Shown here in pieces: positions 38,948 to 53,327 of a stretch of DNA of 64,000 nucleotides. The notes beneath the pieces are model-generated. The model ran no database searches and was not told the origin of the DNA. It was given only the letters and a program-made list of their open reading frames with translations. Within the stretch, counting starts at the first letter, position 1, and each line of letters opens with the position of its first letter. The DNA comes from Hymenobacter jeongseonensis (lineage in GTDB: Bacteria > Bacteroidota > Bacteroidia > Cytophagales > Hymenobacteraceae). The stretch covers positions 1 through 64,000 of the forward strand of contig NZ_JADQDQ010000009.1 in assembly GCF_015694725.1 (NCBI RefSeq), given 5' to 3'. Both the position numbers and the translations under genes were made by a program.

Positions 38948-40018
38948 TCACCGGTTAGTGATTTCCACGTAGGCTTTGCCGTTCACGGGCTTGCCGTTTT
39001 GCGTGCCCGTGACGCGGCACATGCCTTCCCAGTAATTCAATTTCAACACCTTAAAGAGGAGCAAATTCAATTCTTGGTGGGGCACCAGCGGCGTCACCAC
39101 TAGGTCGTAGCCTTTGCTGGGCACGGTGATGCGCCACGTGGCGGGGTACTTCTTCTTGGAGGTTGGGCTGGTCCAGTACGTGAGGGGTTCCAGCTTGAAA
39201 TCGGTTTCGGCAAGGTGCAGGTTTTCACCCTGAGCACCAAAATGCGAGCCGCCGCCAATTTGCTGGCCGGTTTTGGTATCGTGCACGGCATACAGCATCA
39301 GGTCTTCCTTGGACTCGTCCATTTGGATGCTGAGCCAGTCCCAGGCCACGTTGCGCTTGTTCACGCCGCCGCAGTTCCACTGCCGGTCGTACCAGAGCTC
39401 GCCGGTCACCTGGCGGGTTTTGCCGCCTACCTCGATGGTGCCGGTGGTGGCGAGGCGCGGGTAGCTGTAATAGCCGGCCTGGGCCACCGGGCCGTATTGC
39501 TCGTAGCCCGTGCCGCCGTGCAGCAGCACCGGTTTGGTGGGCGTGGTACGGAGATTGATGGCTTGGCCGGTTTTATTGCGCGGACCTTTGGTGGTCATGC
39601 GGGCCTGTAGCTGGTAACGGCCTTCCTGGCCTGTGAGGGTCCAGGTTTGGTCGTCTTTGGGCTGGGCGAGGCTGATGGGCAGCGCGGCGGTGAGCGGCGC
39701 GGGCAGCTTATCAAGCTGGTAATCGAAGGCGAAAAGCTGCGTTTGCGGGTCCGTCAGGGCGAAGTTTACCATCTGGTAATCTTTCTTGCCATCGGGGCTG
39801 AAGTGGAAGAAAACGTACTCCACGCCGAAGTCCTCGCCGGTGGCCACGTCCTTCAAATGGCCCGTGAAGTACCACCACTCCAGCGAGTTTTTCACATGGG
39901 GTGCTTCCTCCAGCGGCAGCTGGGCCTGGCCGGGGAAAACATCGTTTTTAACAGTAGGCTTGAGGATGGAGCAAGCCGAAGCAACAGCAAGAAGCAGGGC
40001 GAATCGCAGGAATTTCAT
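38948..40018 (-). CDS. Lipocalin-like/CrtC-type (AttH-fold) lipoprotein
   Basis: This 356-residue protein has a lipobox AVASAC (Cys16). The mature domain matches the hydroxyneurosporene synthase/AttH fold: EWWYFTGHL near the N-terminus, GVEYVFFHF, a central GYYSYPRLATTGTIEV, and WYDRQW with WDWLSIQMD. CrtC members hydrate carotenoids, but lipoproteins like this one are usually annotated only as lipocalin-like secreted hydrolases; no carotenoid genes are nearby. The frame opens at 40081; ATG 40018 (MKFLRFALLLAVASAC) is the clear start. Confidence 0.87.
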   Translation of the reverse strand: MKFLRFALLLAVASACSILKPTVKNDVFPGQAQLPLEEAPHVKNSLEWWYFTGHLKDVATGEDFGVEYVFFHFSPDGKKDYQMVNFALTDPQTQLFAFDYQLDKLPAPLTAALPISLAQPKDDQTWTLTGQEGRYQLQARMTTKGPRNKTGQAINLRTTPTKPVLLHGGTGYEQYGPVAQAGYYSYPRLATTGTIEVGGKTRQVTGELWYDRQWNCGGVNKRNVAWDWLSIQMDESKEDLMLYAVHDTKTGQQIGGGSHFGAQGENLHLAETDFKLEPLTYWTSPTSKKKYPATWRITVPSKGYDLVVTPLVPHQELNLLLFKVLKLNYWEGMCRVTGTQNGKPVNGKAYVEITNR

Positions 40019-40147
40019 ACCCTGCCACAAGGCTTTTCCGAGGCTAAAAGTTTGGTTTAGGGTGGAGTTTAACGCGCGCAATGCGGGGTCCTAAAGCCTC
40101 CGAAGCGCTTTTTGCCACCTGTCCCACTTCTCCCGAAAACCCAGCTA

Positions 40148-40849
40148 CTACTTCTGGGGCGGCGCTACGGGAGGCTCGGGCATCCGGATTTTGCCCATCA
40201 CCTGCCCGCGGTTGGGCACCGACTCCATTCGCACCACCAGCGGGCCCGGCTGCGGCGTGGTGCGCGTGTTCAGGCTCACCTTTTTCTCCTTGAAATCAAA
40301 CGGATTGCCCACAAATCGCAGCTCGACCGCGCCGCCGGCCAAGGGCGCCCAATCCCGCGCCATGCGCAGCTCGAACTGGCCTTGCTCGTCCGTAACGGTG
40401 CCGTACTGCGTGCCATTGATGAAAACGCTGACTTGCGCGGCGGTTTTGCTCTCGCCGTCGAATACCTGGCCGCGAATGATGAGCTGCTGCGTCTGCGCGG
40501 CGGCGGGGTCCGTGGGGGCAGCCGTGGCTTGGGCTGGCAGTTGCTGGGGCGGCTTGGTAGCGCAAGACGTCAGGGGCTGCCAGCCCAGCAGCGCCAAGCC
40601 AGCCAGGGCCCAACGCCGCCAGCGGCTGGCCGGCGCCGAGGCGACCAGCTGCGGGGCGCGGGCCAGTGCGCACACCGTCCGGCCGCCCTGCCGCGCCAGA
40701 TACGCCATGATTTCCGCATCGCTCAGGCGGGTGAAGTCCACGACTTCGGTGGCACAGGCGCCGCAGTGGCGGCCGTCGGCGGTGGGCGTCATGGCGGCCC
40801 AGGGCTGGGCGCAGGGCTGCGGAATGGAGATGCGGGGGAGAGTGGCCAT
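40148..40849 (-). CDS. Zinc-ribbon-like/TM/carboxypeptidase-regulatory-domain protein, paralogue 1
   Basis: This 233-residue protein has an N-terminal ribbon-like motif with Cys13, Trp17, Met20, His28, Cys29 and Cys32, followed by VVDFTRLSDAEIMAYL and another Cys in GRTVCALA. One hydrophobic segment (about residues 77-92, RRWALAGLALLGW) is followed by a polar linker and a beta-rich domain with IRGQVFDGESKTAAQVSV and DEQGQFELRM, like CarboxypepD_reg domains. The layout suggests a small metal-binding cytosolic head, one membrane pass and an exported beta-sandwich. It shares ribbon positions exactly with the next gene upstream (25-bp gap). Function unknown. Confidence 0.78.
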   Translation of the reverse strand: MATLPRISIPQPCAQPWAAMTPTADGRHCGACATEVVDFTRLSDAEIMAYLARQGGRTVCALARAPQLVASAPASRWRRWALAGLALLGWQPLTSCATKPPQQLPAQATAAPTDPAAAQTQQLIIRGQVFDGESKTAAQVSVFINGTQYGTVTDEQGQFELRMARDWAPLAGGAVELRFVGNPFDFKEKKVSLNTRTTPQPGPLVVRMESVPNRGQVMGKIRMPEPPVAPPQK

Positions 40850-40874: not shown

Positions 40875-41744
40875 TTATCGGCCTCGGAATGGTTGAGTCA
40901 ACCAATATTTACTCCAATAATAAAAGCGGCGCGGATGCCAGGGCGCGGGCGGCATCTTGCGGGCATAAACAAAGTCTACTTCGCCCAGCATGCCTTTGAC
41001 ATCGGCTTGAAGCCGAAAATTTTGTATCGAGGACGCATTGGTGGCAATGCGCGTGCGCTGTTGTGTTACAAACCCAACAAAATGAATGGTTAGCGTTAGC
41101 TCTCGGGTTCCAATTAGTGAATCCGGCACTTGCAACTCAAAACGGCCATCGGCATTTGTACTTGTTCCAAAGCGAGTGCCGGCAATGAGCACGGTACAGC
41201 CCGGTATCGACTCGCCGCTGCTAGCATCCATAACAATGCCCTGCAACAGCGGCGTCGTCACTGCCGGGAAATACTTCTTAGGGACCGATGCGGAATCCGG
41301 GATGCTAGTCTGTTGCTTCAAGGCCGAGTTGGTGCCTTGAGTAATGGAGGAATTGTCTGCATCTGGAGGAAGCGTAGCCGGTACTGGCCCGCCCGAATGT
41401 TGGGCGCGCCATTCGGCAGGGGTTTGGGCAAGTGCTGAGGTGCCCGCCGTTTCGCGCACGCTCCACAGGGCTACGGCCGCCGCCAGCCAAGTCCGCCAGC
41501 GCGTTGGGGCAGCCAGTTCGGCGCGCTGCAACGGCCGTTCTAGCTGCCCCGCCGCGAAGCGCCCGCAGATGCGGGCGTTTGCGGCCCCGGCGAGATAGGC
41601 CAGGATTTCGGCGTCGGTTTTCAGAGTAAAGTCCACCACGTTTTTTTGGCAGGCCGCGCAGTGGCGGCCGGCGGTGGTGGGCATCATGGCGGCCCAGCTT
41701 TCGTGGCAGGGCTGCGGAATGGAGAGGGTAACAGATGGGCGCAT
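40875..41744 (-). CDS. Zinc-ribbon-like/TM/carboxypeptidase-regulatory-domain protein, paralogue 2
   Basis: This 289-residue paralogue has the ribbon residues Cys13, Trp17, Met20, His28, Cys29 and Cys32 at the same positions, then VVDFTLKTDAEILAYL and a further Cys in RICGRF. A hydrophobic segment (about residues 83-95) leads to a Ser/Pro-rich linker and a CarboxypepD_reg-like domain (LLQGIVMDASSGESIPGCTV, TNADGRFELQVP). The C-terminus is basic and aromatic (RRFYYWSKYWL). The frame opens at 41804; ATG 41744 (MRPSVTLSIPQPC) aligns with the start of paralogue 1. The pair is probably co-transcribed. Confidence 0.78.
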   Translation of the reverse strand: MRPSVTLSIPQPCHESWAAMMPTTAGRHCAACQKNVVDFTLKTDAEILAYLAGAANARICGRFAAGQLERPLQRAELAAPTRWRTWLAAAVALWSVRETAGTSALAQTPAEWRAQHSGGPVPATLPPDADNSSITQGTNSALKQQTSIPDSASVPKKYFPAVTTPLLQGIVMDASSGESIPGCTVLIAGTRFGTSTNADGRFELQVPDSLIGTRELTLTIHFVGFVTQQRTRIATNASSIQNFRLQADVKGMLGEVDFVYARKMPPAPWHPRRFYYWSKYWLTQPFRGR

Positions 41745-41861
41745 GGGCTTGAATTTGGTGCGAAGGGCAGCCCTTGTCTGATGCCGACGGCACATGAATT
41801 CCACATGCCCCCGCCATTATGCTTTATCTTTTGCGCTTCAAACTCGTCCCATCCACCTTTC

Positions 41862-44399: not shown

Positions 44400-45107
44400 A
44401 TGCACCCCACCTTCCGCATTGAGCTAAACGAGAAACTATACCTGCGCGACCCCCAGGACACGGACCTGGGGCGCCGGCTAGTAGCAGAAAGTGTGCTCCT
44501 CATCGACCAAATTGGTTTTGAGCAGTTCACTTTCAAGAAGCTGGCGCAGCGCATCGAATCCACGGAAGCCTCGCTGTACCGCTATTTTGAGAACAAGCAC
44601 AAACTACTGGTGTACTTGGTGAGTTGGCACTGGGCATGGCTGCGCTACCAGATTCGATTCCACACCCATAACGTGCCCGACGCTTGCGAACGGCTGCGAC
44701 TCATTCTGGGCATTCTCACCCGTTCCCACCAAGATGACCCGGCCACGGTTCAGCTCGACGAGGCGGCCCTCTACCGCATTGTGGTCAGCGAAGCTTCCAA
44801 GGCCTACCTCACCAAGGACGTGGACGACGACAACCGGGCCGGGCTGTTTCGGGAGTACAAGCGCTTGGCAGCAGGCATAGTGGAAGTGGTACAGGAAATC
44901 AACCCCGCCTACATCTACCCGCACGCCTTGGTGAGCACCTTGCTGGAATCGGCCCGCAAGCAATTCTTCTTCGCCCAACACCTGCCCTCTCTCACGGACG
45001 CTGTAACCGGCAACGGCGGTGAAAACGCCGTGCAAGCCTTCCTGACCCAGCTGGCTTTTGCTACCCTGACTCTGAAAATCTCCTCGGACCCCGACCGAAG
45101 CGCCTAA
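44400..45107 (+). CDS. TetR/AcrR-family transcriptional regulator
   Basis: This 235-residue protein has a TetR N-terminal HTH domain, about residues 20-72: LGRRLVAESVLLIDQIGFEQFTFKKLAQRI, then STEASLYRYFENKHKLLVYL. The C-terminal ligand domain is variable with no recognised effector. It heads a same-strand group of ABC exporter, HlyD adaptor and TolC channel, 46 bp before the exporter, and so is the likely local repressor of it. A 10-bp direct repeat immediately precedes its ATG. Confidence 0.92.
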   Translation: MHPTFRIELNEKLYLRDPQDTDLGRRLVAESVLLIDQIGFEQFTFKKLAQRIESTEASLYRYFENKHKLLVYLVSWHWAWLRYQIRFHTHNVPDACERLRLILGILTRSHQDDPATVQLDEAALYRIVVSEASKAYLTKDVDDDNRAGLFREYKRLAAGIVEVVQEINPAYIYPHALVSTLLESARKQFFFAQHLPSLTDAVTGNGGENAVQAFLTQLAFATLTLKISSDPDRSA

Positions 45108-45153: not shown

Positions 45154-46884
45154 ATGGCGGACCTGCCCCCATCTTCCCTCACCCCCGGCCAACGCCTGTT
45201 CCGGTTGCTGGCATCCGAGCGGCGCGACATCACTTACCTCTATGTGTACGCAACGCTGGCCGGCCTCGTCAACCTGTCGTTGCCCCTGGGGGTGCAATCC
45301 GTCATTGGCTTCGTGAGCAGCGGGGCCGTGAGCACTTCGCTGGTGGTACTCATTGGCTTCATTGTTCTCGGCACGCTGCTGATGGGCGGCCTGCAGGTGA
45401 TGCAGGTGTACCTGGTCGAATTCATTCAGCAGCGGCTCTTCGCCCGCATTAGCCTCGACTTTGCCCTGCGCCTGCCGCAGGTGCGGACCGAGTCCTTGGA
45501 TGGCCAGTACCTGCCCGAGCTCATGAACCGGCTGCTTGATGCCCCCACCCTGCAGAAGGGGTTGGCAACCATTCTGATTGAGTTTTCGGCGGCGGCCCTA
45601 CAAATCCTGTTCGGGCTGTTGCTGCTCTCCTTTTACCACCCCATCTTCATCGCCTTTGGGGCGTTGCTAGTGGGGCTGCTGGCCCTGATGATTCGCGTGA
45701 CGGGCCCCAAGGGATTGAGCACCAGCCTCCAGGAGTCCAAGTACAAGTACAAGGTAGTAGCCTGGCTCGAAGACGTGGCCCGCACCGTGCATACCTTCCG
45801 CCACCCACCCCGGCAGGAAATGGCCTTGGACCGCACCGACACGCTGGTAGAGGGCTACCTGAGCTCGCGCCAAAGCCATTTCCGGGTGCTGCTCATCCAA
45901 TTCTGGGGGTTCGTGGCGTTCAGAACTTTGATTACGGCGGCGCTGCTCATCATCGGCTGCTGGCTGCTCATTGACCGCCAGATTAACATCGGTCAGTTCG
46001 TAGCAGCCGAAATCGTCATCATCCTCACCATTTCAGCTGTGGAAAAAGTACTGCTCAAGCTGGACGTGGTGTACGACGCGCTGACCAGCCTCGATAAAAT
46101 TGGCCACGTGCTGGACTTGCCTGTGGTGAACGGCCAGGGCGCCACTACGTTGCCGCTGCCCGCTGTGCAGGCTGGCCTGCGGGCCGAACTGCGCCAGCTC
46201 AGCTACGAATACCCCGACACCCATCGCCACCCGCTTGACCAGCTCACGCTCACCATTGCTTCGGGCGAGCACTTGGGCCTAGCCGGCTACGACGGCTCGG
46301 GCAAAACCACGCTCCTGCGCATCTTGGCCGGCTTGCTCACCGGCTACACTGGCGTAGTGGCTTACGATGGGCTGGCCTTACAGGATTTGACGCCCGCTTC
46401 CCTGGGCGAACACGTGGGCGACAACATTGCCCATCAGCACCTTTTCGACGGCACTCTGCTTGAAAACCTCACCCTGGGCCAAGCCCGCATCGGGGCCGAC
46501 GACGTGGCCTGGGCGCTGGCATTGGTAGGGCTGCGCGACGACGTATACGCCCGCCCCTTGGGCCTGAATACGCCTCTGGGCATCGGCTCGCCACTCGCCG
46601 ACAGCACCCGCCAGAAACTGCTGCTGGCCCGGGCCCTGGTGCGCCGCCCCCGCCTGCTTCTGCTCGATAATTTCCTGCCGGGGGTGGAACCTGCCGAACA
46701 GCTGCGCATCCTGCGGCGGGTGCTGGCATCCGAACACCCCTGGACCGTAGTCCTGGCTTCCAATGATTTGCGCGTGCTCAGCCTCTGCCCGCGCTTGGCG
46801 GTGCTGCGCGAAGGCGTGCTGGTAGCAGACGGCGCATTTGCCGCAGTGGCCCAGCAAGCCGAAATGCGGGAACTGCTAGCGTAA
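45154..46884 (+). CDS. ABC exporter (TM plus NBD) with a degenerate ATPase domain
   Basis: This 576-residue half-transporter of the HlyB/MsbA type lacks a peptidase domain. TM helices lie within about residues 20-300 and the NBD within about 340-576. Walker A is intact (GYDGSGKTTLL, Lys384). Against family consensus the other key residues are changed. The Q-loop Gln is replaced by Ala426, LSGGQ by LADST (481-485), the catalytic Glu after Walker B Asp505 by Asn506 (LLLLDNFLPG), and the switch His by Asn537 (VLASNDLRVL). The reading frame is intact and neighbours are conserved exporter parts, so it is not a decaying gene. It is likely the inner-membrane component of a type I secretion-like complex. 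Confidence 0.88.
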   Translation: MADLPPSSLTPGQRLFRLLASERRDITYLYVYATLAGLVNLSLPLGVQSVIGFVSSGAVSTSLVVLIGFIVLGTLLMGGLQVMQVYLVEFIQQRLFARISLDFALRLPQVRTESLDGQYLPELMNRLLDAPTLQKGLATILIEFSAAALQILFGLLLLSFYHPIFIAFGALLVGLLALMIRVTGPKGLSTSLQESKYKYKVVAWLEDVARTVHTFRHPPRQEMALDRTDTLVEGYLSSRQSHFRVLLIQFWGFVAFRTLITAALLIIGCWLLIDRQINIGQFVAAEIVIILTISAVEKVLLKLDVVYDALTSLDKIGHVLDLPVVNGQGATTLPLPAVQAGLRAELRQLSYEYPDTHRHPLDQLTLTIASGEHLGLAGYDGSGKTTLLRILAGLLTGYTGVVAYDGLALQDLTPASLGEHVGDNIAHQHLFDGTLLENLTLGQARIGADDVAWALALVGLRDDVYARPLGLNTPLGIGSPLADSTRQKLLLARALVRRPRLLLLDNFLPGVEPAEQLRILRRVLASEHPWTVVLASNDLRVLSLCPRLAVLREGVLVADGAFAAVAQQAEMRELLA

Positions 46885-46928: not shown

Positions 46929-48329
46929 ATGCCTTTTGCTGAACACCCCCTAGCCGAATCTAACCCGCTGACCGGGCGCTTCCGCTCGTTTGCGCGGGTG
47001 CAAACCCCCAAGGCGGGCCGCACGCTGGCCCGCTGGGCGGCGGGGCTGGGCTTGCTGGTGCTGCTGGCCGGCTTCCTGCCCTGGACGCAGAACATCCGCT
47101 CTGCCGGTACGCTTACCACGCTACGCCCCCAGGACCGTCCCCAAACCGTGCCCAGCACCATTGCCGGACGCATTCAGCGCTGGCGGGTGCGTGAGGGCCA
47201 GCATGTGCGCCGCGGCGATACCCTGGTAGAAATTACCGAGATAAAAGAGAAGTATTTCGACCCGCAGCTCGTGCAGCGCACCGGCGAGCAACTCGACGCC
47301 AAGATTGGTTCGCTGAGCGAAAACCGAGCGAAGGGCACGGCCCTCAGCGCCCAGCAGACCGCTCTGCGCGCCGGGCTGCAGGTAAGCCTCAGCAAAGCCC
47401 GCAATTACGTGGAGCAAAGCCGACTGAAAGTAAATTCCGACCAAGCCGAACTCGTGGCCGTGCGTAACGACTACACCATTGCCGAGCGCCAGCAGCAGCG
47501 CCAGGAAGAACTGTACAAGCAGGGACTAAAGTCGCTCACGGAGCTGGAGCAGCGCCGCCTGAAGTTTCAGGAGGCGACGGCCAAGTTGCAGTCGACCGAA
47601 AACAAGCTGGCTGCCAGCCGCCAAGCCTTCACCAACGCTCAATTAGAATTGGCTTCGCTCGCCGCCGAGTACCAGGACAAGCTGGCCAAATCAGAATCGG
47701 ACCGGCGCTCGGTGACGGCTTACCAGTTCGACACCGAAGGGCAGATTGCCAAGATGCGCAACGAGCTGGCCAACCTCAGCATCCGGTCAGGCTTCTACCA
47801 CATCACGGCCCCGCAGGACGGCTACGTGGTGCGTGCCTTGAAAGAAGGCATTGGCGAAATCATCAAGGAGGGCGAACCGATAGTAACGGTGATGCCCGAC
47901 GCGCCGGCCCTGGCCGCCGAGCTCTACGTGAAGCCAATGGATATTCCGCTGTTGCGCGTGGGCCGTAAAGTGCGCCTGCAGTTCGACGGCTGGCCGGCGC
48001 TGGTGTTCAGCGGCTGGCCGGGCACCAGCTTCGGCACGTTCGGCGGGGTGGTGTCGGTCATCGACAACATTGATTCGCAAGGCCAGTACCGGGTGCTTGT
48101 TACGCCTGACTCTACGCAGGAAGCTTGGCCTCCCCCACTGCGCGTGGGCTCGGGGGTGTACGGTTGGGCCCTGCTCGATGACGTGCCCATTTGGTATGAG
48201 CTGTGGCGGCAGGTGAATGGCTTCCCGCCCAACTACGTGGGCGGCCCTACCCCCAGCCCCGACAAAGGCGGCAAGGAGACTAAAAAAGCGGCCAAGGAAT
48301 ACTCTACGACCGAAGAAGAAACGAAATGA
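46929..48329 (+). CDS. HlyD-family membrane fusion protein
   Basis: This 466-residue periplasmic adaptor has one N-terminal TM (about residues 36-52). A lipoyl/barrel start follows (VPSTIAGRIQRWRVREGQHV), then a long coiled-coil hairpin rich in Gln, Glu, Lys and Arg (about residues 100-275). The beta domain returns with ITAPQDGYVVRALKEGIGEIIKEGEP. The C-terminus is Lys/Glu-rich. It joins the ABC exporter (44 bp upstream) to TolC (4-bp ATGA overlap downstream). The cargo is unknown. Confidence 0.93.
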   Translation: MPFAEHPLAESNPLTGRFRSFARVQTPKAGRTLARWAAGLGLLVLLAGFLPWTQNIRSAGTLTTLRPQDRPQTVPSTIAGRIQRWRVREGQHVRRGDTLVEITEIKEKYFDPQLVQRTGEQLDAKIGSLSENRAKGTALSAQQTALRAGLQVSLSKARNYVEQSRLKVNSDQAELVAVRNDYTIAERQQQRQEELYKQGLKSLTELEQRRLKFQEATAKLQSTENKLAASRQAFTNAQLELASLAAEYQDKLAKSESDRRSVTAYQFDTEGQIAKMRNELANLSIRSGFYHITAPQDGYVVRALKEGIGEIIKEGEPIVTVMPDAPALAAELYVKPMDIPLLRVGRKVRLQFDGWPALVFSGWPGTSFGTFGGVVSVIDNIDSQGQYRVLVTPDSTQEAWPPPLRVGSGVYGWALLDDVPIWYELWRQVNGFPPNYVGGPTPSPDKGGKETKKAAKEYSTTEEETK

Positions 48330-49900
48330 ACCAGTGGCGCGTGTGTGGGATAGGGCTGACTTTGCTGGTCCTCGTGGTTGGATTGGGCGACGTGGCCGCG
48401 CAAACAGTGCGCCCGGCAAGCCCGTTGCCGGGCCAGTCGCCCCGCACCCAACAGCGGCTGCAGCGGCAAGCGCGCCAGCTACAGCCAACTGGTTTGCAAG
48501 GTGCGCCGACCCTGGTAACTCGCCCGGTGGAGCTAGCCGATAGCGGCCGCGTATTTGGCCTCACCGATTTGCTGACCTACGTTACGCTGCGCCACCCCCT
48601 GGCCCGGCAGGCGGGCTTGCTGCCCGAGCGTGCCTTGCAGGAAGTGCGCTTAGCCCGCGGCCAGTTCGACCCCGCGGCCACCAGCAAATACTACGGCAAG
48701 CAATTCGGCGGCAAGGATTACTTCCACGACTGGGACACCCAATTGCGGGTTCCTCTTTGGTTCGGAGCCGACGTGAAAGCCGGATTTGAGCGGGGGGTGG
48801 GCACCTACATTAACCCCGAAAACTATACCGCGCCGGTGGGCTTGAGCTACGTGGGCATCTCGGTGCCGCTGGCCCAGGGCCTGTTGATAGACGAACGCCG
48901 GGCGGCGGTGCGCCAGGCCCAGGCCCTGCAGGGCCTAGCCGAAGCCGAGCGGCGCGGGGTTCTGAATAAGCTACTGCTACAGGCCGCCAAAGACTACTGG
49001 GACTGGACCTTGAGCTACCAGCGCCAGGAATTGTTACGGCAGAATGCTGACCTGGCCGCCGTGCGCTTCCGGGCCGTGCGCGAGCGGGTGCGCTTCGGCG
49101 ATTTGGCCGCTATTGACTCAGTGGAGGCCCTGACGGAGCTGCAGAACCGCCAAGCATTGCTGGTGCAGGCCCAAGTGCAGTGGCAAAACGCTACGCTGCA
49201 GTTGAGCAACTACCTCTGGGACGAGCAGCAGCAGCCCCGCGAACTGCCCAACGACGTGCGGCCCCAGGGACTGCCCAGCCCGGCAGACTGGCTTTCGCTG
49301 CCTCCCGACTCGCTGGCGGCCTTGAGCGAACTAGCTCAGCAGCAGCACCCCGACTTGCAGAAAAGCCGGGCCAAGCTAGTGCAGCTGGGCGTGGAACGGC
49401 GCCTGCTCGGCAACAAGCTGCTGCCCAAGCTCACGCTCGACTACAACCTATTGCAAGCCGGCCAACCATTCAGCCCCGAAACCGGCGCCAACTTCAGCGG
49501 GGCCTATTTGCAAAACAACTACAAGCTCGGCGTGAGCTTTGCCTATCCTTTGTTGCTGCGCCAAGAGCGGGCCAAGCTTCAACTCAATCGCCTCAAGTTG
49601 CGCGACATCGAGCTGGGCCTGCAACAAGATACCCGCGCCATTCAGACCGGGGTGCGGGCTGTGGCCAACGATTGGGAGGCCCTACGCGCCCAACTGGCTC
49701 TACAGGAGCAAGTGGTACTGAACGCCGAGCGCCTCCGCAAGGGGGAGCAAATTCGCTTTGAAAACGGCGAAAGCTCGGTTTTTCTGCTCAACACCCGCGA
49801 AGCCAGTTTGGTCACGGCCCGCGTGAAACTTGCCGAATTGCAGGCTAAGTACGCCCAAACCCAAGCCACGCTGCGTTGGGCGGCCGGCGGGGTAGAATAG
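48326..49900 (+). CDS. TolC-family outer-membrane channel
   Basis: This 524-residue protein has a signal peptide (ending near GDVAAQ) and two TolC/OEP repeats of long helices. Visible segments include RQAGLLPERALQEVRLARGQFDP near the N-terminal repeat and QQDTRAIQTGVRAVANDWEAL in the second. Barrel strands lie near VPLWFGADVKAGFERG and KLGVSFAYPLLLRQE. Its ATG overlaps the stop of the HlyD gene by 4 bp (ATGA), so the two are translationally coupled. It completes the exporter. Confidence 0.93.
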   Translation: MNQWRVCGIGLTLLVLVVGLGDVAAQTVRPASPLPGQSPRTQQRLQRQARQLQPTGLQGAPTLVTRPVELADSGRVFGLTDLLTYVTLRHPLARQAGLLPERALQEVRLARGQFDPAATSKYYGKQFGGKDYFHDWDTQLRVPLWFGADVKAGFERGVGTYINPENYTAPVGLSYVGISVPLAQGLLIDERRAAVRQAQALQGLAEAERRGVLNKLLLQAAKDYWDWTLSYQRQELLRQNADLAAVRFRAVRERVRFGDLAAIDSVEALTELQNRQALLVQAQVQWQNATLQLSNYLWDEQQQPRELPNDVRPQGLPSPADWLSLPPDSLAALSELAQQQHPDLQKSRAKLVQLGVERRLLGNKLLPKLTLDYNLLQAGQPFSPETGANFSGAYLQNNYKLGVSFAYPLLLRQERAKLQLNRLKLRDIELGLQQDTRAIQTGVRAVANDWEALRAQLALQEQVVLNAERLRKGEQIRFENGESSVFLLNTREASLVTARVKLAELQAKYAQTQATLRWAAGGVE

Positions 49901-50059: not shown

Positions 50060-51169
50060 ATGCTAAACCAGACCGAAATTCTGCACCATGTGGTGCAGGG
50101 CAGTCCCATTCTTCTTTTCGCGTACAGTGTGAGTGCCCGAGAAGTGCTGTTCGTGAACGAAGCCTACGAGCGGATTTTCCCCCAAAGCCGGCGGGACACC
50201 GCCACCGCCGACCTGCCCGCGCTGCTGCGCTGCCTCCCGCCCGAAGACCAGCAATACGCCCTGGGTTGCCTGACAGACCTCGCCAACGGCGAACTGCAGG
50301 ACGACTTGCTGCTGCGCATGCAGCTGGAGCCCAACGTGCCTTTGCGGTGGCTGTGCGTGCGCGCCCACCGCGCCGTGGCCAGCGACGGCCAAGTGCTGCT
50401 GTGCGGCAGCGTGCAGGACGTGACCGTGGACCACGAGTACACGCGCAACGCCGATAAGTTCATGGCCAAGAAGAATACCACGCTCGAAATCCTCTCCCAC
50501 GACCTGGCCGGGCCGTTCAACATGCTGCAGCAGATGGCGGGTTTTTTCCAGGAAAAAACCCAGGACTTGCACGACCCGCAGCTGGAAAAAATGGTGCAGG
50601 TGATGCAGGACACGTGCCGCGACAGCATCAATCTCATCCGCGAGTTCGTGGACAGCGAGTTTGCCGAGTCGGCCAGCGTGCAGCTCAAGCGCGCGCGGGT
50701 GGACCTGGCGGCCAGCATCCGCCAGGTAATGGATACCTACCAGCAGTCCGAGCACCTGGTAAACAAACGCTTTAGTTTTAGCAGCACGCCAGACAAGGTG
50801 TACATTGAGCTGGACAACAACAAGTTTTTGCAGGTGATGAACAACTTGTTGTCGAACGCCATCAAGTTTACCGGCGAAGGCGGCCACATTGCCGTGACGG
50901 TGGTGCAACACCCGCAGCACGTGCTGGTGACCGTGGCCGACGACGGCATCGGCATTCCCGAAAAGCTGCAGCCGGTGTTATACGACCGGTTCACCAAAGC
51001 CCGCCGACCAGGCTTGCGCGGCGAGAAAACCACCGGCCTGGGCATGTCCATCATTCAGGCGCTGGTGCGGCTGCACGGCGGCGGCATCTGGTGCGAAAGC
51101 CAGGAAAATGCGGGCACCACGTTCTTCATTCAGTTGCCCACGGAAGCACCACGGCCTATTTCGAGTTGA
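50060..51169 (+). CDS. PAS-domain sensor histidine kinase
   Basis: This 369-residue soluble kinase has an N-terminal PAS domain (about residues 8-130: HHVVQGSPILLFAYSVSAREVL). The H box is EILSHDLAGPFNMLQQMAGF (His147), and the HATPase has NNLLSNAIKFTGEGG, ADDGIGIP and GLGMSIIQALVRLHGG. No membrane helix is seen. It follows the exporter on the same strand. Its 3' end overlaps by 14 bp the convergent response-regulator gene. It may signal to that regulator, but the kinase on the other strand is the closer operon partner. Confidence 0.92.
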   Translation: MLNQTEILHHVVQGSPILLFAYSVSAREVLFVNEAYERIFPQSRRDTATADLPALLRCLPPEDQQYALGCLTDLANGELQDDLLLRMQLEPNVPLRWLCVRAHRAVASDGQVLLCGSVQDVTVDHEYTRNADKFMAKKNTTLEILSHDLAGPFNMLQQMAGFFQEKTQDLHDPQLEKMVQVMQDTCRDSINLIREFVDSEFAESASVQLKRARVDLAASIRQVMDTYQQSEHLVNKRFSFSSTPDKVYIELDNNKFLQVMNNLLSNAIKFTGEGGHIAVTVVQHPQHVLVTVADDGIGIPEKLQPVLYDRFTKARRPGLRGEKTTGLGMSIIQALVRLHGGGIWCESQENAGTTFFIQLPTEAPRPISS

Positions 51170-51557
51170 GTGCCGCTTCCAGTTGCGCGCGCACGTTTTG
51201 TATCTGCTCCCCGTCCAGCGGCTTGCGAATAAGGCCGGCCACCAGCGGGAACTCGTGGATGCGCTCGGCGTCGGAGTGGGCCAAGGAAGACGTGAGGATG
51301 AAGATGTAGCAGCGCCCCAGCAGGGCTTCTTCCTGTGGTTTGAGGGCAGTCAAAAAATCCCACCCGTCCATCACGGGCATGTTCAGGTCGAGAAAAATGA
51401 CCTGGGGCAACTCGTGCAACGGCGCATTCTGCAGGAATTCGAGGGCTTGCTGGGCCGACGCGAAGGATGCCAGATTTTCGGCAAACCCTTCTCGTTTCAA
51501 CAGGCGTTCGGTGAGGAATACGCCGATGGAATCGTCGTCTATTAATAAGGTTTCCAT
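51156..51557 (-). CDS. Single-domain response regulator
   Basis: This 133-residue protein is one receiver domain without output. The acidic pocket is LIDDDS (residues 5-10), the phospho-acceptor is Asp57 in FLDLNMPVMDGWDF, and the switch Thr and Lys are in FILTSS and IRKPLDG. It acts by protein contact or as a relay intermediate. It lies 7 bp downstream of the PAS kinase gene on the same strand and overlaps the 3' end of the other kinase by 14 bp. Confidence 0.94.
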   Translation of the reverse strand: METLLIDDDSIGVFLTERLLKREGFAENLASFASAQQALEFLQNAPLHELPQVIFLDLNMPVMDGWDFLTALKPQEEALLGRCYIFILTSSLAHSDAERIHEFPLVAGLIRKPLDGEQIQNVRAQLEAALNSK

Positions 51558-51564
51558 GCGGGGT

Positions 51565-52992
51565 TCAGCGTAAATGCAAAGTAAAGCAGGTGCCCGCGTT
51601 CACGGTGCTGCTCACCTCGATGCGGCCGCCCATGGTTTCGACGTGGGTTTTCACCAAATACAGGCCCATGCCGCGGCCCGGCTGGCTGGTATGAAACCGC
51701 TTGTAAAGCCGAAAAACATCGGGCCCGGCTTTGTCCACGTCGAAACCCGAGCCGTTGTCGGCAAACAGCACGCGCACCCCAGCGCCGGGCTGCGCCGTGG
51801 CGCTAACCGTGACCCGCAGGCGCCGCTCCTCGGAGCGGTACTTGATGGAGTTGGACAAGAGGTTAAAAAAAATACTGTAGAGGTAGGCGCGGTTGCCGAG
51901 CACGCTCAGGCCCGCCGGCAGGTCCATCACCACTTCGCCGCCGCACTGGGCAATGGGTTCGGCGAGGTTGCGCCGGGCCTGCTCCACCACGTCGGCCAGG
52001 GGCACGTGCTCCGGCTCGTCCACGTCCTGCTTGTCCCGAATCGAAAGAATGGTGTTCATGTCCCGCAACACGTTGTCGAGCTGCTGGGTGCTGGTGCGCA
52101 AGTTGTTTAGCGTTGGCTGATAATCGGCCGAGTCGCGGTCCAGGCTGTTGAGCAAGTCCACCAGCCCGATGGCGTTGGCGAGCGGGGCGCGCAAGTTGTG
52201 CGACACGATGTAGGTGAACTGCTGCAAATCCTGGTTTTGGCGGTATAGCTCCTCTTGCGACTTCACTTTGTCCGTGACATTCGAGAAGTAGACCGACAAG
52301 CCTTCCTCGGAAGGAAACGCCTTGATATCCAGCCAAAGCGCCCGGCGCCGGAAGAACGCCTCAAAATGCACGGCCTGGTTGGTATCGAGGGCCCGGCGGA
52401 AATGCTGGTGAAAAATTTCGTTTTCATCGGCCGGAAATACATCCTGTAGGTATTGGCCCAGCAGGTGCTCCCGGTTCACGTTCAGCAGGCGCTCCACTTC
52501 GCCGTTGATGTAAGCGAAGCGCCAGTTGTGGTCCAGCACAAAAAATGCATCGGTGATGCTCTCAAAAATGGTGTTGAGCTTGTGGGCCTGCTCGCGAATC
52601 ACGAGGTGGCTTTGGTACACTTCCGTTACGTCGCGCAGCACCGCGTACACGCCCGCAATCGTGCCTTCCACCACCAGCGGGACCTTGGTTACGGCAACCC
52701 GGAGGGCGTTTGAAGTGCCGACAAAATGCACCTCCGCATCGAAGTAAACTTTGTGCCCCTCGAAGGCCTCCCGTAGCTTTTGCGCAAACAACGCGTGTAG
52801 CGACGGCGGCAGAAATTCGTTGAAGTGGTGGCCCACAACCTCGTCCTTGGGCCGCTGCAATACCGCCAGATAGGCCGGGTTAGCATCCCGGATGACGCCC
52901 TCCCGGTTCTGGAACAATACCAAATCGGGGTTATTCTCAAACAGGGCCCGGTACCGCTGCTCGCTTTCCTTCAATTGAAAAATGTCATTCAT
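51565..52992 (-). CDS. Multi-PAS sensor histidine kinase
   Basis: This 475-residue soluble kinase has PAS domains at about residues 1-125 (ESEQRYRALFENNPDLVLF) and 135-250 (LNTIFESITDAFFVLDHNW). The H box is FTYIVSHNLRAPLANAIGLV, with a HATPase (FFNLLSNSIKYRSEERRL, FADNGSGFD, GRGMGLYLVKTHVETMGG). The frame extends upstream to 53133, but MNDIFQLKESEQRYRALF at 52992 is the natural start. It precedes the single-domain regulator by 7 bp, its probable partner. Confidence 0.92.
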   Translation of the reverse strand: MNDIFQLKESEQRYRALFENNPDLVLFQNREGVIRDANPAYLAVLQRPKDEVVGHHFNEFLPPSLHALFAQKLREAFEGHKVYFDAEVHFVGTSNALRVAVTKVPLVVEGTIAGVYAVLRDVTEVYQSHLVIREQAHKLNTIFESITDAFFVLDHNWRFAYINGEVERLLNVNREHLLGQYLQDVFPADENEIFHQHFRRALDTNQAVHFEAFFRRRALWLDIKAFPSEEGLSVYFSNVTDKVKSQEELYRQNQDLQQFTYIVSHNLRAPLANAIGLVDLLNSLDRDSADYQPTLNNLRTSTQQLDNVLRDMNTILSIRDKQDVDEPEHVPLADVVEQARRNLAEPIAQCGGEVVMDLPAGLSVLGNRAYLYSIFFNLLSNSIKYRSEERRLRVTVSATAQPGAGVRVLFADNGSGFDVDKAGPDVFRLYKRFHTSQPGRGMGLYLVKTHVETMGGRIEVSSTVNAGTCFTLHLR

Positions 52993-53327
52993 AAACGGCG
53001 GCGCTCTGGGGCCGGAGCCGGAGCAGTTGCGGGATAGAAATTTCCATTTTGGTTTACGAAAACCGCCCGATTTTGTCGTCAACCCCGCCTGAAAAACCGT
53101 TTTTTTTGTGGCCTCAGTGCCAGTCCCCCTCATTCAACTCGCGCCTTCGCTCGTTGGGCTTCTGCGGTAAATAGCACGGCCTTATCGGTTGCAAGCCCCT
53201 GATTTACACAGGTCGGCTTTCAAAAGTAGTTCGACGGGAAGCCGGAAAAGAAGCCGCCGTTCAACCCGCTCGCCATTGCGCCACCGTATGTGCAGTTCCA
53301 AAGACTTCCTGCCCGGCTGCTTCATCC

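Follow-up and report, generated by a model that had tools for sequence, protein, structure and literature searches.

The window, by which we mean the whole 64,000-nucleotide stretch of Hymenobacter jeongseonensis contig NZ_JADQDQ010000009.1 that was analysed, encodes an ABC-type half-exporter whose nucleotide-binding domain (NBD) is dead, in an intact operon with a HlyD-type adaptor and a TolC-type channel. The protein is one of a Bacteroidota family whose NBD motifs have decayed throughout and of which one clade has no NBD at all, and the conservation of the protein's two domains is the reverse of that in an ordinary exporter. Judged from the sequences, the family probably forms a type I secretion-like tripartite exporter that works independently of ATP hydrolysis, and is most likely ion-driven. 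Independence from hydrolysis is the safer part of this reading and is very likely; ion coupling in particular is favoured less strongly, as a reasonable expectation. The half-decayed relatives and the NBD-less clade take the finding beyond the first-pass annotation of this DNA, in which neither was foreseen.

The half-exporter and its gene group

The gene is intact, as the first-pass annotation had stated, with an ATG start and an unbroken reading frame, and the order TetR-ABC-HlyD-TolC on a common strand is borne out by the reading frames and by Pfam (Table 1). Pfam places ABC_membrane at residues 31-285 and ABC_tran at residues 361-506, each above its cut-off, which is the arrangement of type IV (ABCB-like) exporters. 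The protein is single-copy in its own genome, where the second-best match has 86 bits against 1232 for the protein itself. For the adaptor, the top NCBIfam match is type_I_hlyD, at 96 bits and under the cut-off of 209.

Table 1. Features of the gene group and of the half-exporter, in window coordinates.
Feature	Position	Strand	Basis
TetR-family regulator, first of group	44400..45107	+	Pfam TetR_N above cut-off
ABC-type half-exporter, dead NBD, 576 aa	45154..46884	+	ORF, translation, Pfam ABC_membrane and ABC_tran
Membrane domain, residues 1-335, strongly conserved part	45154..46158	+	Six long helices in model
Residues 211-225, tip of TM4-TM5 loop	45784..45828	+	Between model helices 163-212 and 225-273
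Glu286, TM6	46009..46011	+	Acidic in 64/64 representatives (63 Glu, 1 Asp)
Glu297-Lys298 pair, TM6	46042..46047	+	Glu297: 62 Glu, 2 Asp; Lys298: 63 Lys, 1 Arg (n=64)
Degenerate NBD, residues 336-576	46159..46881	+	Pfam, alignments
Walker A GYDGSGKTT (378-386, Lys384), kept	46285..46311	+	Alignments
Ala426 where Q-loop Gln expected	46429..46431	+	Alignment
LADST (481-485) where LSGGQ signature expected	46594..46608	+	Alignment
Asp505 (Walker B) and Asn506 (catalytic Glu position)	46666..46671	+	Alignment
Asn537 where switch His expected	46762..46764	+	Alignment
HlyD-type periplasmic adaptor	46929..48329	+	Pfam HlyD_3
TolC-type outer membrane channel	48326..49900	+	Pfam OEP; start overlaps HlyD stop

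The motifs were read by aligning the protein with relatives and with eight ordinary ABC exporters from its own genome, and there are no gaps between its row and the ordinary-exporter rows in the motif stretches. The alignment gives the same assignments as the earlier reading of the single sequence: the Walker A Lys and the Walker B Asp are kept, and Ala, LADST, Asn and Asn replace the Q-loop Gln, the LSGGQ signature, the catalytic Glu and the switch His. The catalytic motifs LSGGQ, Walker B Glu and switch His are thus absent from the protein and, with the Gln lost as well, no canonical site could form in a homodimer, as had been claimed.

Three further observations concern the surroundings of the group. 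Adjoining the TolC gene, the region 50060-53133 encodes a protein with a histidine-kinase ATPase domain and, by eye, a receiver-like protein and a PAS-kinase-like protein too. On the minus strand, two adjacent look-alike proteins (40148-40849 and 40875-41804) are apparently a tandem pair, each with a CarboxypepD_reg-like domain and, by eye, a stretch resembling C..W..M.P...GRHC.AC...VVDFT. Also on the minus strand, 38948-40081 encodes a protein with CrtC N-terminal and Lipocalin_9 domains.

Decay and loss of the NBD across Bacteroidota

A scan of contigs found 87 relatives, the best 80 of which were kept (38-89% identity) and come from Cytophagales (Hymenobacter, Pontibacter and others), Saprospiraceae and flavobacteria, Cellulophaga and Tamlana among them. 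A profile of the membrane domain (A1) was then run against 395 genomes drawn across the phylum Bacteroidota with a limit of E 1e-30. It gave 97 matches in 96 genomes, the window's own included, the weakest having E 4.8e-63. Of these matches 63 belong to the dead-NBD group, 28 are half-decayed and six have no NBD, and a canonical NBD was found in 0 of the 97. Three half-decayed members score 221-339 bits against this profile, and the top score among eleven other ABC proteins (eight of the same genome, a PCAT-like one, MsbA and YddA) is 28 bits. The boundary between dead and half-decayed NBDs was set at a membrane-domain score of 360 bits, a split that the tree backs (100/100) but that is imperfect, since a Riemerella member (L249) scores 339 bits yet has a dead-type NBD.

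Pooling gave 217 loci, reduced to 199 by removing repeats: 151 dead-NBD, 27 half-decayed and 21 NBD-less. Seven further distinct dead-NBD loci bring that class to 158, a count from which the plasmid members L249-L251 are excluded; the signature is absent from these too. The half-decayed members, which are more distantly related, all keep the Walker A Lys and the Walker B Asp (27 each), and most keep the catalytic Glu (25) and the switch His (20); the signature core is present in 11 and the Gln in none. Among the 158 dead-NBD members, 154 retain the Walker A Lys and 0 the signature core SxG; Gln is found in 11, the Walker B Asp in 52, the catalytic Glu in 17 and the switch His in 13, and Walker B Asp and catalytic Glu never occur together (0/158). 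These decay counts are of sequences and not of events, in a sample weighted toward Hymenobacter. Asp stands at the Glu position in 85 of 151 members, and variants of Walker B (e.g. LNDF) and of the switch (e.g. SNDP) recur among the relatives. The first-pass annotation had referred to such variants in other Bacteroidota exporters and had proposed a conserved subfamily rather than a lone mutant; their recurrence and the absence of the signature core from all 158 dead-NBD members support this. In L117, L203 and L250 Walker A is seemingly lost as well, which would take the decay one stage further.

The 21 distinct NBD-less loci are those of 14 genomes of the same genus, in which the match is restricted to the membrane domain, together with G052 and six genomes of the phylum sample. 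Their genes stop 8-13 residues past the membrane domain and are followed directly by HlyD, whose start lies at a median offset of -7 bases (taking mechanical first starts). Eleven NBD-less representatives form one clade (100/100; 99 in a quick tree), nested among dead-NBD rows when the half-decayed rows serve as outgroup; the quick tree places it as sister to L036, a dead-NBD member. The missing domain was sought elsewhere in these genomes with a profile of the family NBD and was not found in 20 of the 21 (G011 was left out): the best score per genome among the matches listed was 131-150 bits, the level of ordinary exporters. In two control genomes that do have the family NBD it scored 301 and 356 bits, with an ordinary exporter there reaching 162. 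In 37 Hymenobacter genomes (E 1e-60), the dead-NBD form occurs in 16 and the NBD-less form in 14; seven have neither and none has both. If the two were independent, six genomes with both would be expected and the chance of none is 2e-5, which is only suggestive of mutual exclusion, as related genomes are not independent.

The HlyD-TolC setting is constant. The pairing with HlyD and TolC had been taken to be conserved, and in all 92 distinct dead-NBD loci that have 3.5 kb or more of downstream sequence HlyD is the immediate neighbour, with TolC behind it. The two are likewise present in all 19 NBD-less loci whose downstream sequence is long enough, and in the half-decayed loci HlyD is found in 20 of 24 and TolC in 21 of 24. 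Of the 144 dead-NBD loci whose upstream flank reaches 1 kb or more, at least 104 have a TetR gene upstream on the same strand, many flanks being short; of the 21 distinct NBD-less loci (L120-L134, L160, L167-L171) 0 have one. Regulation may have been altered along with the loss of the NBD. In one of the latter, L134, a TetR gene is present on the opposite strand. Beyond TetR, HlyD and TolC, no gene cluster occurs in more than 4 of 79 representative loci, whose flanks differ in length; the neighbours were considered as a guide to substrate or function, and no recurring substrate gene was found among these 79. A PADLOC scan gave just short Walker A matches. The Riemerella anatipestifer member L249 has its HlyD and TolC genes and lies in a housekeeping neighbourhood (murB, rplU and others), in a record labelled as a plasmid.

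Constraint on the membrane domain

In 11 genomes the mean identity to the window protein is 84% for the membrane domain and 69% for the NBD, the reverse of an ordinary exporter in the same 11 genomes (74% and 84%). The same holds for dN/dS. With the window's own genome added, the medians are 0.125 for the membrane domain and 0.323 for the NBD, the NBD being higher in 66 of 66 pairs; for the ordinary exporter they are 0.256 and 0.182, with the NBD lower in 51 of 66 pairs. Closer pairs within the family (the 41 of 57 computed pairs with dS under 2, two of the 41 being half-decayed) give 0.114 for the NBD and 0.054 for the membrane domain, the NBD again being higher in 39 of 41. The NBD is therefore relaxed yet retained, and the membrane domain tightly held. 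Purifying selection on the dead NBD persists and Walker A is retained, which means that the domain still matters in that branch. The NBD-less members have a median dN/dS of 0.168 (119 pairs, dS 0.05-2), which is below the value of the ordinary exporter but not lower than the 0.125 of the dead-NBD membrane domains.

An alignment of 19 diverse members, the window protein included, has 46 invariant membrane-domain columns. Glu286 is conserved across the family, and is also Glu in 14 of 15 half-decayed representatives; it aligns with Phe288 of E. coli MsbA, and at least 8 of 9 ordinary exporters have no acidic residue there. Glu297, Lys298 and Asp308 are conserved in the family likewise; among the nine ordinary exporters, two have Glu at the position of Glu297 and four an acidic residue at that of Asp308. 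These four residues could have a role in proton coupling or in handling the substrate. The acidic residues need not serve proton coupling, because they are already conserved in the half-decayed relatives. The counterparts of the MsbA proton residues D41, E149 and D252 were also considered, and are not acidic in the family. Glu314 of LmrA falls near Asp308 by a rough count from Walker A only, from which we make no claim.

The NBD-less clade differs from the rest at the surface that would face an NBD. The tip of the TM4-TM5 loop, where transporters of this type have coupling helix 2, is its least conserved bin. Of 67 columns conserved at 90% or more in 53 dead-NBD representatives, 52 are kept (at 80% or more) in the 11 NBD-less ones, but identity in the bin 211-225 drops to 0.20 of the usual value, and no other whole bin lies below 0.66. 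In 23 overlapping dead-NBD control clades the same bin lies at 0.39-1.29 and is the lowest in 8 of 23, so the loop signal is strongest in the NBD-less clade yet graded, and not unique to it. Arg210 and Phe215 of this NBD-facing loop show the difference more clearly, being present in 49 and 52 of the 53 dead-NBD representatives and in 1 and 2 of the 11 NBD-less ones. The model of the window protein, on which the helix limits rest, has a pLDDT of 79.5 and a pTM of 0.52.

Origin and source of energy

The top NCBIfam match of the window protein is the type I secretion model TIGR03375, at 169.7 bits against a cut-off of 693, and the best matches of the membrane-domain profile among solved structures are ComA chains (E 1e-9). 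A model of the relative L079 (mean pLDDT 83, from a 26-row alignment) aligns with exporters at Z about 30. Against HlyB (8dck) 665 residues align, starting from residue 4, and the other full-length rows cover 536-565 residues and almost all begin around residue 155. This difference suggests that the modelled L079 has a C39-like domain at its N-terminus. Of the dead-NBD members 37 of 151, and of the half-decayed ones 21 of 27, carry an N-terminal extension of at least 110 residues, which is absent from the window protein; the extension found no credible match in Pfam or in a profile search of solved structures. A C39 or C39-like domain is not present in all type I secretion transporters. Exporters such as HlyB, LssB and PrtD share HlyD and TolC partners with the window system. 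The window family differs from them in having no functional NBD and no recurring substrate gene nearby, and the window protein itself in having no N-terminal domain and in scoring far under the TIGR03375 cut-off.

A parallel for the loss of the NBD is SbmA. PMC13316013 proposes that this transporter descends from an ABC membrane domain, having lost the NBD along with the coupling helices, and that protons drive it via a glutamate ladder; the SbmA/BacA (SLiPT) secondary peptide transporters share with the window family an ABC-type membrane domain without NBD, conserved glutamates and loss of NBD-coupling elements. By analogy, the family fits an SbmA-like course and supplies its intermediates. 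However, SbmA imports, whereas the window family sits with HlyD and TolC and has surviving dead-NBD intermediates. A common origin with SbmA or YddA receives no support from the sequences (profile scores of -4.7 and -0.5 bits), and Pfam SbmA_BacA has no match in the window protein or four NBD-less members, the control E. coli SbmA giving 558 bits. Without their NBDs, LmrA-MD and MsbA-MD are described in PMC2704374 and PMC4979069 as transporting with ion gradients. MsbA-MD was reported to be less efficient than full-length MsbA. These are engineered truncations of active exporters, whereas the NBD-less clade is natural and its transport is a prediction. In the titles and abstract beginnings searched in the open-licence literature, no family of exporters was found that is naturally dead-NBD or NBD-less and associated with HlyD and TolC.

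We propose descent from an ABC exporter of a type I secretion-like kind, with an ATPase that decayed stepwise: the Q-loop and signature probably went first and the catalytic Glu and the switch His next, and in one clade the NBD disappeared completely. In a TetR-linked export machine with HlyD and TolC, the window protein would be the inner-membrane component; two copies of its membrane domain would keep alternating access and hand the substrate on to HlyD and TolC, no ATP being hydrolysed. The most likely source of energy would be a gradient of protons or another ion acting on acidic membrane-domain residues such as Glu286 and Glu297, although an unrelated energising protein may be encoded elsewhere. 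The leftover NBD of the window protein probably binds nucleotide without turnover, as a structural or regulatory clamp.

The most serious alternative, which we nevertheless consider unlikely, is that the membrane domain is no pump but an anchor, gate or passive channel for HlyD-TolC, or a sensor. The NBD-less clade has no evident energy source and the HlyD-TolC setting is constant, both of which this would explain. However, the membrane domain is very highly conserved, including charged and polar helix residues, seemingly beyond what an anchor would need, and its dN/dS is about half that of the membrane domain of one ordinary exporter in the same genomes (0.125 against 0.256).

It is improbable that a canonical ABC half-transporter, or an NBD from elsewhere, pairs with the protein and supplies ATP hydrolysis. 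TAP and TM287/288 keep one complete site. Exporters with one degenerate site exist, and CFTR and Pdr5 also keep one complete site (PMC7756269). All four have non-canonical NBD residues too, often with Walker A kept, and ordinary exporters that might act as partners are present in the searched genomes. Nevertheless, the window family could form no complete site, even in a mixed dimer, because the cis Gln, Glu and His and the trans signature are all missing, leaving both mixed sites incomplete. Nor was a recurring canonical partner half-transporter found beside the genes at the 217 loci, of which 61 are shorter than 5 kb and so give a short view. Another NBD-like ORF is present at 10 of the 217, and in five of these, all distant loci, the motifs read as those of presumed UvrA genes, which were rejected as partners. 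The NBD-less clade, moreover, loses the loop residues that would contact a partner NBD.

There is similarly little to be said for slow hydrolysis by the homodimer with its altered residues, such as an Asp in place of the catalytic Glu. In its favour, Walker A is kept, and this Asp, found in more than half of the members counted above, is a conservative replacement known from degenerate sites (PMC7756269). Against this, the signature is gone in all 158 dead-NBD members, the window protein has Asn and not Asp, and the NBD-less clade could not hydrolyse ATP at all. A pseudogene or sequencing artefact, which the loss of motifs resembles, can be dismissed, as the earlier annotation had thought, given intact reading frames in many genomes, an NBD dN/dS of 0.114 and a family spread across the phylum. 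Of the mechanisms that the annotation had offered, another mechanism therefore fits best, and a partner NBD fails, its site being incomplete and NBD-less relatives existing.

Transport independent of ATP hydrolysis, probably coupled to ions, is thus the reading we prefer. A practical consequence concerns annotation: two annotated records call members merely 'ABC transporter ATP-binding protein', a name that can mask the loss of the NBD. Ion-driven work by the lone membrane domain of an ABC exporter rests, to our knowledge, on LmrA-MD, MsbA-MD and SbmA, and a natural family with dead or absent NBDs, fixed with HlyD and TolC, permits a direct test of the question. The family may well be a natural, phylum-wide record of the passage from an ATP-driven type I secretion-like exporter to a secondary-active tripartite exporter, independent of the SbmA lineage, though we would put the case for this no higher than evenly balanced. 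If it is true, the half-decayed, dead and NBD-less stages of that transition are all alive today.
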